Shown here piece by piece: positions 4,621 to 45,111 of a stretch of 64,000 bases of DNA. Numbering within the stretch: the stretch's first letter is position 1; each line of letters begins with the position of its first letter. Location: the NCBI GenBank assembly GCA_944323155.1, contig CALURL010000002.1, positions 62,001 to 126,000 on the forward strand, written 5' to 3'. Origin of the DNA: Candidatus Gastranaerophilales bacterium. Its GTDB lineage: Bacteria; Cyanobacteriota; Vampirovibrionia; Gastranaerophilales; Gastranaerophilaceae. The notes below the pieces were generated by a model. It saw only the letters and a list, made by a program, of their open reading frames with translations, had not been told where the DNA came from and ran no database searches. Made by a program: the position numbers and the translations under genes.

Positions 4621-4740
4621 GATTTGGTGCTACTCACGTAGTTACTTGTATCAATGTTCGAAAAACTTTAAAGTCTTTCGAATATTGGCACAAATTCCTA
4701 CGTGCGGAGCTCCTTTTCCATCAGGAGAGGGAATTTTTTT
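4621..4740. repeat. Dispersed intergenic repeat with long imperfect inverted arms
   Basis: After the AsmA-like gene the sequence folds on itself: GCTACTCACGTAG near 4629 pairs imperfectly with CTACGTGCGGAGC near 4698, and GTTCGAAA pairs with TTTCGAAT inside. The 23 bp at 4667-4689 recur in reverse orientation at 44234-44256 with one mismatch, inside the leader of a pilin gene. It ends in a GAGCTCC...GGAGAGGGA motif also found in variant form at 44172 and 5556. This is therefore a member of a dispersed repeat family. It may also act as terminator for the upstream gene. No gene is seen in it. Confidence 0.65.
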
Positions 4741-5387: not shown

Positions 5388-5745
5388 CGCTTGTTATTTA
5401 ATCGTGTGTAGATTTTTTTCTTGATTATTCCGAAATGTTTATTGTTGGGCATACTTCATACATGCCCAACATACAAAATAGGAGAGGATATTTTCTTCCT
5501 TCTCTCAGTGGGAGCTGGTGACTGCAAGTCTGTGTATTTATTGTCATATCAAATCCCCTCTCTTGATGGAAGAGGGCTAGGGTGAGGGAACAGTCATAAT
5601 TAGTTTCATTTGTTGGGGTGGAAACCCCAACCTACAATTACTGCAAGCCGGATGAGGGGAAGTAGAAATGTTGTTTATTTATTGTCATAATTTTGTTGGG
5701 CAAGTATGCCCAACCGACAATTTTTGCCGGAACCCCAACAAGTAA
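5388..5745. repeat. Gene-free region with several dispersed hairpin repeats
   Basis: No gene is seen. Three palindromic hairpins of related sequence occur: TGTTGGGCAT/ATGCCCAACA (5443-5471), GTTGGGG/CCCCAAC (5612-5631) and GTTGGGCA/TGCCCAAC (5695-5714). Between them lies a CCCTCTC...GAGAGGG-type element (about 5556-5590, continuing GGGTGAGGGA). A TTTATTGTCATA block is repeated near 5537 and 5677. The same hairpin (GTTGGGC/GCCCAAC) and the same GAGAGGG...GGTGAGGGA element appear inside the pilin leader at 44172-44354. The region looks like an accumulation site for small non-coding repeats. Confidence 0.7.
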
Positions 5746-23951: not shown

Positions 23952-24754
23952 ATGAAAAATTTGTTTAGAGATGTTTACGGGGGGGGGGCAAGCGCCTAAA
24001 ATCCTCTCATAATCTATTTAAAGCCTTTACCCTTGCTGAAGTTTTAATAACTCTGGGTGTAATCGGTGTTGTTGCGGCATTAACTTTGCCTAATTTGATT
24101 GCAGATTACAAAGAAAAAGTTTTTGTTAATTCTGCGAAGAAAACCTATTCAGTTGTTTATAATGCTCTTAATATGTGGCTTGCAAATAATGGAACTCCCG
24201 GTGATTATACTGCATTTTGGCTTTCAAATTCAGATAGTGATGCGTTGTTGAAAGATTTTGCTACTTATCTTAACGCTGTTAGTGTATGCACAAGTAGTAA
24301 TATAGATAAGTGCGGCGGAAGTTATACTGTAAGGCAGTATAAGAAAATTAATAATGGTATGGGAAATACAACACAATCTGGAGCTTTAAATTCTCGTCGC
24401 ATTGTATTGGCTGATGGTAGTTTTGTTGGTATAATATCAGAAGTTCAGAACGGAAGCTGTACTCATACATGGTTTTCTAATGAAAGCGATCCAAATGGTA
24501 ATTATATTCCGGATCCTTCCAGTCCAAACGGATATAAGGGGGAGTATAAAACGAGTAATAATTGTGGATTCTTTTATATAGATACAAACGGTCTTAAAGG
24601 ACCTAATCAAGTTGGAATAGATAATTTTGCATTTGGAAGCGGTGCTGACAAAGGATTTTATTCACAAGCTCCTATGAATGGTAACTTTGATTATGTGCTT
24701 GCTAACGGGAAATTGATTGAAACAGAAAACTATACTGTTGGAAAATTTGAATAA
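23952..24754 (+). CDS. Type IV pilin-like protein, out of frame at a G10 tract (about 267 residues when joined)
   Basis: AGGAGG (23938-23943) and the ATG at 23952 begin MKNLFRDVY, then ten G (23979-23988). In the ATG frame translation stops at TAA (23994-23996). In the -1 frame the sequence continues KRLKSSHNLFKAFTLAEVLITLGVIGVV, a class III/IV prepilin signal with the cleavage site before F and Glu at +5, then a pilin body to 24754. A tract of 8 or 11 G, or a -1 slip, joins the two. The body has DTNGLKGPNQVG, a motif shared with the other pilins here, and several cysteines. A TTG start at 24086 would lose the signal and is not credible. Likely phase-variable or slippage-controlled. Confidence 0.8.
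23979..23988 (+). repeat. G10 homopolymer tract in pilin leader
   Basis: Ten consecutive G after codon 9 of the pilin-like gene, followed by CAAG. Length is 3n+1; the pilin frame needs 3n+2. Confidence 0.9.
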
Positions 24755-32992: not shown

Positions 32993-33002
32993 GGGGGGGG
33001 GG
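32993..33002 (+). repeat. G10 homopolymer tract upstream of the 1154-residue protein gene
   Basis: Ten G followed by CAAA, the same form as the pilin tracts, but intergenic: 65-74 bp before the start of the 1154-residue protein (read as C10 on its strand), between that gene and the histidine kinase stop. It lies upstream of the probable -35 region, where a length change could alter activator spacing rather than a reading frame. Confidence 0.85.
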
Positions 33003-43286: not shown

Positions 43287-44021
43287 ATGAGAGTTGGTGT
43301 AATTTCTGATATCCACGGTAATTTTCAGGCATTGGAAAGTGTTTTAAAAGATATGGAAGGCAAAAAATGCGAGAAAGTTTTTTGCCTTGGAGACTTGGCA
43401 ATGGCAGGACCTCAGCCGAGAATGGTTATTGATTTCGTTTCAAAACAGTCTGATTGGGTAGTTATTCAGGGAAATACAGATAAAATGATTGCAGAATTTA
43501 CTCCAAAATTGTTTGAAGATGTTTATGCATCTTTTCCTGTCATGGCAAATGCTCTTGCTGATGATGTTAATCTTATCGAATCTGATAAGAAAGAATTTCT
43601 CAGACATCTTCCTCCACAAAAAGAGTTGGAAATTGAGGAAGTCAAAATTCTTCTTGTTCATGGCTCTCCAAGACGTAATAACGAGGATATACTTCCTGAT
43701 ATGCCTTTGAAAGTGGTAGAAGAAATGATTGCGGGTGTTGATGCTGATGTAATATTTTGCGGACACACCCATATTCCATGCGGTTACCAGACAAACAGTA
43801 AGCAAACTATTGTAAATGTCGGCAGTGTTGGACGTCCAATGCATGGTGAACCAAAAGCTTGTTATGTGGTTGCTGATTTTGAAGATGGCGGGTTTTCAAT
43901 TGAGCATAGATTTATTGAATATGATACAGTTATGGCTGCTGAGATAATGGCAAAAAGAAATTTTGACGGCTGTTTAAAACTCGCTGAGATGATTACTAAT
44001 CCTACGACAAGGCACATTTAA
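43287..44021 (+). CDS. Calcineurin-like metallophosphoesterase (YfcE/MJ0936-type)
   Basis: This 244-residue protein has all metal motifs: SDIHGN (Asp, His), GDLAMAGP (Asp), GNTD (Asn), LVHGSP (His) and CGHTHIP (His, His). The compact size and GSVGRP near the C-terminus place it with DUF2436/MJ0936-like phosphodiesterases. Substrate unknown. TTGGAGGT lies about 8 nt before the ATG. Confidence 0.9.
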   Translation: MRVGVISDIHGNFQALESVLKDMEGKKCEKVFCLGDLAMAGPQPRMVIDFVSKQSDWVVIQGNTDKMIAEFTPKLFEDVYASFPVMANALADDVNLIESDKKEFLRHLPPQKELEIEEVKILLVHGSPRRNNEDILPDMPLKVVEEMIAGVDADVIFCGHTHIPCGYQTNSKQTIVNVGSVGRPMHGEPKACYVVADFEDGGFSIEHRFIEYDTVMAAEIMAKRNFDGCLKLAEMITNPTTRHI

Positions 44022-44080
44022 ACTTTACATTAACTATGATTAATATTATAATTATTTTAGCAAAATAAAGGAGAGAAAAT

Positions 44081-45111
44081 ATGAAAAAGTTAGAACGACA
44101 CGCTCACGGGGGGGGGGCACAGGCGCAGAGGTAGTTTCAGGTAATGGGCTGAAAGATATATTTTTCTTCCCTCTACCTATGGGAGAGGGTGCCCGAAGGG
44201 CGGGTGAGGGATACTACGTACGTAATTACCTTTGCCAATATTTGAAAGACTTTAAAAATTTTCAGAATATGTGCTGCCAATGCTTTAGGCATTTCCACCA
44301 TCCGTCCGCAAACATTTTTAGGAAGTTAAATGTAGGTTGGGCTTTCAGCCCAACAAAAATCTCAGCCTTCACACTGGCAGAAGTCTTAATTACCCTCGGT
44401 ATAATAGGTGTTGTTGCTGCAATGACCTTACCTTCTGTAATTTTAAATTATCAGAAAAATGTAACAGTGACTCAATTAAAGAAAGCTTATACAACAATAA
44501 GTCAGGCACTTGTTATGGCTCAATCTGATTATGGGGATATGGCAGGCTGGGACTATGTAGATGGTTTAACTGCATCAGAGACTAACGTGTCTTTAAATAA
44601 TTTTGCAAATAAATATTTAATCCCAAATATTAAAAAAGTAGAAAGTTGCCCCTCCGGTACATCAGGAAGAACAAAGTGCGCTTATGAGATATATAATCGT
44701 GACGGTTCAGTGCGTATGTATCAAAATCAAGGAAGTTCAAACGATTATCGTTTTATAATGAATGATGGTGTTGTCGTTAAATTAGCATATAATAATGATG
44801 GCGGCGGTAATGATACAGGAGAAGTTCACTATGGGAGTGTTCTTTTTATTCATATTGATATAAATGGTAAAAAAGGCCCTAATATGGTTGGAAGAGATTT
44901 TTTCTATTTAATACTAGATCCAAATGCGACAAAAGTTTCTATGCTTGGTCTCAATGATGGCGACCAAAAAGCCGGTTCCCAAACAAGAGAAAATTTATTG
45001 AATAATAGTATGCGTGGTTGTAATAGTAATAATGCCTCTCAGGGAAGGGCATATTGCGGCGCTCTTATTCAATATGACGGCTGGCAGATAAAAGACGATT
45101 ATCCATGGTAG
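44081..45111 (+). CDS. Type IV pilin-like protein, out of frame at a G10 tract, with repeat-derived long leader (about 343 residues when joined)
   Basis: AAAGGAGAG precedes the ATG at 44081 (MKKLERHAH), followed by G10 (44108-44117). The ATG frame ends at TAG (44132-44134). In the -1 frame translation continues through about 75 extra residues before the prepilin cleavage site at SAFTLAEVLITLGIIGVV (about 44368). This leader is made of dispersed repeat elements (44172-44354). The body is a close paralogue of the 57788 gene, with IDINGKKGPNMVGRDFFY and the same C-terminus (ALIQYDGWQIKDDYPW). 8 or 11 G, or a -1 slip, would connect the frames. A start at the ATG at 44179 gives a signal-bearing frame without the tract, but has no ribosome-binding site. 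Confidence 0.78.
44108..44117 (+). repeat. G10 homopolymer tract in pilin leader
   Basis: Ten G after codon 9, followed by CACA. The relation to the downstream pilin frame is the same (-1) as at the other three pilin loci. Confidence 0.9.
44150..44365 (+). repeat. Dispersed repeats inserted in frame inside the pilin leader
   Basis: Three modules known elsewhere in the window lie here: a CCCTCTACC...GGGAGAGGG element continuing GGTGAGGGA (compare 5556-5590), a block of which 44234-44256 equals 4667-4689 in reverse with one mismatch, and a hairpin GTTGGGC/GCCCAAC (44336-44354; compare 5443, 5612, 5695). The reading frame stays open through all of them. Confidence 0.75.

Follow-up and report, generated by a model that had tools for sequence, protein, structure and literature searches.

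Dispersed palindromic repeats are known to lie in frame within protein genes, the described cases being RPEs and those REPs that fall within ORFs (PMC10969869; PMC3733652). Intragenic repeat clusters encode 43-82 residues (PMC3733652), and a notable share of RPE and REP insertions into ORFs is found at N termini (PMC10969869; PMC3733652). The genes that harbor RPEs are unrelated, often housekeeping genes, and the repeat-encoded segment is mostly kept in the protein (PMC10969869; PMC3733652). GTAG-tagged REPs and BIMEs, composed of GTAG followed by a palindrome, occur in many copies, assemble into mosaic clusters and accompany a RAYT gene flanked by REPs (PMC2817692, PMC3733652). Frame switching of pilin genes has been reported for the sortase pilus of Bifidobacterium, in which an intragenic G tract whose lengths include G9-G12 decides the fusion of two reading frames; each genome has one or two such loci (PMC9187656). 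It is puzzling that repeats read in frame should insert into functional proteins; if the peptide that they encode were removed before the protein works, their tolerance would have a simple account.

The gene described here lies in a window of 64,000 nucleotides, the whole stretch of DNA that was analysed (G000:C2:62001-126000 in our numbering of genomes and contigs), in the 1.79 Mb genome of a Candidatus Gastranaerophilales bacterium. Positions without a contig prefix are those of the window. The gene runs on the + strand from an ATG at 44081, the sole start with a Shine-Dalgarno region (approximately 44072-44080, +, scored in the sequence), to a stop at 45111. The start codon and first codons, nine in all and read in frame as MKKLERHAH (44081-44107, +), precede a G10 tract (44108-44117, +). 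The frame of the ATG coincides with the pilin frame at G8, G11 and G14 only; at the assembled G10 it reads GGGAQAQR-stop, ending after MKKLERHAHGGGAQAQR with the stop 17 codons past the ATG, and the gene is OFF as assembled. At G11 translation from the ATG would read the leader and then FTLAEVL. The pilin frame itself is already open 5' of the tract and meets no stop until 45111, with 83 leader and 247 mature codons. The first-pass annotation was right that this frame stays open through the insert and overlooked that the ATG frame is out at G10. The distance from the end of the tract to FTLAEVL (44368) is 250 nt, whereas the three further tract pilins in the window have 37, 40 and 40 nt. The excess thus amounts to about 70-71 codons with no stop in the pilin frame; the first-pass annotation had counted about 75 extra residues. 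Like the Bifidobacterium switch (PMC9187656), this gene carries an intragenic pilin G tract that sets a frame fusion; unlike Bifidobacterium, the present genome has pilins that are type IV-like and some 60 genes with a G tract, and a repeat-built leader does not appear in the consulted part of the Bifidobacterium account. The window holds pilin tracts at 23979, 44108, 56918 and 57815, as well as a G10 tract at 32993-33002 with no pilin motif downstream.

The mature pilin (44368-45111, +, 247 codons and the stop) begins with FTLAEVLITLGIIGVVAAMT, and profile, alignment and motif lead us to expect cleavage before the F. The leader, the predicted cleavage before F, the E at +5 of the prepilin peptidase motif FTLAEVL and the hydrophobic helix that follows are shared with type IV prepilins and type II pseudopilins, and a prepilin peptidase domain (PF06750) is encoded in the genome. 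In a profile comparison made with the mature part, the first mature residue of solved type IV pilins falls on F88, and two models score just under their cut-offs: TIGR02532 at 16.1 bits (cut-off 16.3) and Pfam N_methyl at 18.6 bits (21.2). The GspG and ComGE models show partial similarity below cut-off. The predicted structure has a helix at residues 87-142 with pLDDT 87-96, the leader remaining mostly at 26-48. Since a Foldseek search of the whole model against the PDB returned no significant match, the assignment as a pilin rests on the N-terminal motif, the matches to solved pilins, the sub-cut-off profiles and the family alignment. What differs from type IV prepilins is the leader, which in the ON phase would reach about 95 residues, a length well beyond that usual for prepilins. 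At the other end, most aligned mature pilins, this one and its relatives, finish in a strongly conserved CGALIQYDGWQIKDDYPW that Pfam DUF6613 matches weakly.

Read from 5' to 3', the leader is a mosaic of a REP remnant, a block B, a block A, a stretch known from one paralogue only and a GTAG-tagged REP, all on the + strand. It opens with a segment common to paralogues (GAEVVSGN, 44118-44144), delimited by alignment with the genes at C11:68497 and C8:22973. The remnant TGGGCTGAAAG (44145-44155), which the first-pass annotation missed, is over its 11 nt the exact inverse of 44342-44352, so that the mosaic is flanked by inverted REP parts. Block B, CCCTCTACCTATGGGAGAGGGTGCCCGAAGGGCGGGTGAGGG (FPLPMGEGARRAGEG), occupies 44169-44210 and was delimited by repeat comparison and a consensus match; block A (44214-44262), the approximately 48-nt core of a 60-bp unit (YYVRNYLCQYLKDFKNF), is the inverse of 4656-4714. 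The following 44263-44331 is common to paralogue C11:68497 alone and has no other match in the compared DNA. The last element, GTAGGTTGGGCTTTCAGCCCAAC (VGWAFSPT, 44332-44354, with its hairpin at 44336-44354), has the layout that defines a GTAG-tagged REP, GTAG followed by an imperfect palindrome (20-40 bp in the definition). The B-A composite matches the consensus of the other genomic copies with 86% identity over 94 nt (E 3e-26), and we regard the repeat origin of this leader as nearly certain. The first-pass annotation had described three modules found elsewhere; blocks B and A are indeed true repeats, and the hairpin belongs to a widespread family, its exact 19-nt variant being confined to four pilin leaders in the genome. 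Because of this restriction, part of the spread of the variant is likely to have been from leader to leader. A fourth candidate repeat, block 'D' (KICYNSDMxHHY), was dropped and left out of the insertions because it resembles the conserved leader of congener G001. A search of Rfam with 43900-44700 gave no match.

The same elements occur between genes. Within the window, repeat comparison places a block A copy at 4656-4714 (-), and a diverged block B copy, already seen in the first reading of the sequence, lies at approximately 5556-5588 (+); REP-family hairpins of the 20-nt type lie at 5612-5631 and 5695-5714 (both +; C2:67612-67631 and C2:67695-67714 in the hairpin scan). Genome-wide, the REP family has 63 exact-stem hairpin copies, against 0 in a mirror control, and the 97-nt B-A consensus matches 59 places. 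REPs combined with other motifs in a recurring order, the arrangement of a BIME, are found as B-A-REP at loci on C23, C10 and C4; intergenic examples with the order and orientation of the leader include C23:16426-16522 and C10:76054-76150. The one Y1 transposase-family gene of the genome is a RAYT by NCBIfam NF047646 (130.2 bits, cut-off 80), with REP-family hairpins on either side, their inverted orientation being judged loosely, and one inside. The internal one is a REP-type hairpin read in frame as VGVETPTYG within the coding sequence of this RAYT (C3:17237-17593, L191). This layout agrees with the published RAYT/REP/BIME organisation (PMC2817692, PMC3733652), the shared features being GTAG with a palindrome, copy number, mosaics and a REP-flanked RAYT, and the Coxiella REP GTAGGTTGGGCTGAGCTTGCGAAGCCCAAC (PMC2817692) is closely similar to that of this genome. 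Unlike the GTAG-REP and BIME systems, the mosaic described here sits inside an ORF and adds blocks A and B. We infer a RAYT-driven origin of the leader mosaic, A and B being only candidate RAYT substrates. That the repeats move, as proposed in the first-pass annotation, gains indirect support from a RAYT flanked by its cognate REPs and from the absence of the composite in sister species. Judged by its sequence, the leader resembles RPEs and intragenic REPs in carrying dispersed palindromes in frame in a protein gene; unlike RPEs, the pilin-leader repeats are concentrated in a single gene family, where they occupy a segment that should be cleaved off and that lies 3' of a homopolymer switch.

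The survey of the genome took in about 80 prepilin genes. In sixty of them an ATG with Shine-Dalgarno is followed by 9-10 codons and then a G tract; as assembled, 55 of these are out of frame and 5 in frame. When C-tract genes are included (n = 69), 68 leaders are open, with a median of 43 nt and a maximum of 548 nt. Tracts range over G9-G12 and C10-C11 among loci; in this single assembly, a long homopolymer within the ORF, lengths that differ among loci and a fusion that depends on frame together have the appearance of phase variation. In 51 of about 60 prepilin genes the tract is exactly G10, which lacks a single base for the fused frame, and six have G11, a bias for which selection for OFF, assembly consensus and slippage in transcription are candidate causes. 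Many tract pilins have no repeats in the leader. B/A blocks occur in about 10 leaders, eight by automatic detection together with C2:138824 and C19 near 15344. All 17 scored copies in leaders lie on the coding strand and all 17 are open (one frame accounts for 12 and a second for 5), while outside leaders the forward frames are open in 10/22, 2/22 and 16/22 cases and the reverse frames in 19/66. The B/A-bearing leaders sort into about three related groups, so that independent insertions were few, and the frame argument on its own is weak if there were only three events. By cluster, 8 of 31 fall in leaders by automatic count, or 10 with C2:138824 and C19. Leaders make up about 0.33% of the genome, and the enrichment has a P of about 1e-7 for 9 or more B/A clusters, a rough value that assumes a 12% non-coding share and treats as independent insertions that may be shared by descent. 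The gene at C2:138824 is ON: at C11, an ATG with Shine-Dalgarno opens a 402-aa frame whose 195-residue leader holds four A units and one block B. It belongs to a second class of pilins, with C10/C11 tracts in place of G tracts and with A/B leaders (C1:200414, C2:134733, C2:138824, C24:4986 and C19 near 15344).

The closest relative of the gene, at C11:68497, shares 96.8% DNA identity in the leader, where the 83 codons compared show 8 nonsynonymous changes and 0 synonymous ones, and differs in leader length by exactly one 60-bp A unit. The mature parts are 88.8% identical, with dN 0.076 and dS 0.32, values that point to constraint on the mature pilin. By these identities, the two leaders diverged later than much of the mature sequence did, a pattern suggestive of recombination; identity along the pair is patchy, with further near-identical patches. 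The leader residues show no sign of constraint, a weak indication from eight changes only. Related leader arrangements are present at C8:22973 and C1:186095.

We consider it likely that an in-frame REP/BIME mosaic is tolerated in the discardable leader of a type IV prepilin under G-tract control. The BIME-like mosaic would sit in frame in the leader; a slip from G10 to G11 would carry translation from the ATG at 44081 through it as a leader of about 95 residues; prepilin peptidase would cut before FTLAEVL and leave the mature pilin unchanged. Translation of the leader in the ON phase followed by its removal is probable. Because it is discarded, such a leader could accept almost any inserted sequence, provided that the frame stays open, and only frame-keeping insertions would be tolerated. 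Leaders may in this way gather the genome's own repeats by fresh insertion, by gain or loss of 60-bp tandem units and by paralogue duplication or recombination. Phase switching at G10 and the absence of selection on the leader sequence are both inferred, and tolerance of the mosaic, as distinct from selection for it, is fairly probable. The first-pass annotation also held that leaders tolerate insertion; the gene described here, some ten of its relatives within the genome and, with different repeats, further genera bear this out.

Other explanations differ in what they make of the open frame. The gene might be a relic locked permanently out of frame, its repeats untranslated and its frame open by chance. 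The stop 17 codons after the ATG at G10, the 55 of 60 G-tract pilins out of frame and an internal ATG at 44179 devoid of a visible Shine-Dalgarno would suit a relic; 83 leader and 247 mature codons are nevertheless still open, as are 68 of 69 tract leaders, the mature part is constrained relative to its paralogue and genes at G11 or C11 exist, one of them with a repeat-filled leader, all of which makes a relic unlikely. Frameshifting during translation at G10, or slippage there during transcription, may also take the place of DNA slippage. The repeats might instead act as DNA or RNA, as seams for recombination that reshuffles pilin cassettes or makes them alike, or as message-tuning hairpins, with translation incidental. 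We rate this as rather unlikely. In its favour are the higher identity of the leader than of the mature part, the near-identical patches between paralogues and the 19-nt REP variant limited to four pilin leaders; the RNA fold is also mildly more stable than shuffles (z -2.2), a value given little weight. An open frame would be needless for a function at the DNA level, however, many tract pilins do without repeats and the patchy identity leaves the borders of exchange tracts undefined.

A long leader could alternatively be a selected peptide (for targeting, or as a chaperone or regulatory domain) that derives from repeats by chance. Leaders can be conserved, as illustrated by the approximately 35-residue leader LAAERNFLPHCEKEKICYTSDMKNHFKSIKKG shared by the majority of the pilins sampled from congener G001 (L121-L140). 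Against such selection stand the excess of nonsynonymous over synonymous leader differences, the low predicted order of the leader and the reading of block A in two frames in different pilins. Conservation of the long leader as protein across species, which the first-pass annotation would have taken as the sign of selected coding sequence, was looked for: none of the 59 family genomes sampled, both congeners included, has the B-A composite, and three have B alone. A selected peptide is accordingly very unlikely. Wrong joins in metagenome assemblies typically occur at repeats, and an intergenic repeat might have been joined artificially to a pilin; with the same leader on another contig at 97% identity and with one extra 60-bp unit, with the related arrangements at C8:22973 and C1:186095 and with in-frame repeat leaders in other genomes, a chimera is barely credible.

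Reading of the yfcE neighbourhood found an orthologous pilin at this locus in none of ten sampled family genomes, so that exact insertion junctions are not mappable; one neighbourhood (L111) has a nearby pilin on the opposite strand with a different leader. These ten genomes and the paralogues yielded no insertion-free allele and showed neither a clean junction nor a target duplication; the paralogues have flanks in common and differ in the 3' parts of their leaders. In G003, which represents another genus of the family, tract leaders are open in 9 of 9 cases and five span 235-491 nt; the loci were picked partly for long open frames and the count therefore gives no frequency. Several of these leaders are palindromic repeats unrelated in sequence to B/A, and a 251-nt piece of one has 83 matches in the G003 genome. 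The leaders of L099, L110 and L157 hold further repeat-like stretches, recognized by inspection. We tentatively suggest, as a possibility on balance rather doubtful, that the Gastranaerophilales leader is a general safe harbour within coding DNA, where the repeats of each lineage, RAYT/REP mosaics in this genome and other palindromes in others, would build up in frame and serve as seams for the exchange of leaders and switch cassettes among tens of phase-variable pilins. One large gene family, a disposable leader and different repeats in different genera form a combination that searches of open-access papers did not find described. Such a family offers many natural replicates with different repeats and bears on how the gut relatives of cyanobacteria diversify a large set of switchable pilins; for gene calling, genes in the G10 state are likely annotated with wrong starts. 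In G001, most sampled leaders carry KICYTSDMKxHF before FTLAEVL, and similar stretches occur in several pilins of the present genome. A second in-frame FTLAE motif lies 5' of the real one in three pilins (L101 4882, L111 2912 on the - strand and L147 92), which look as though their leader and cleavage region had been duplicated.
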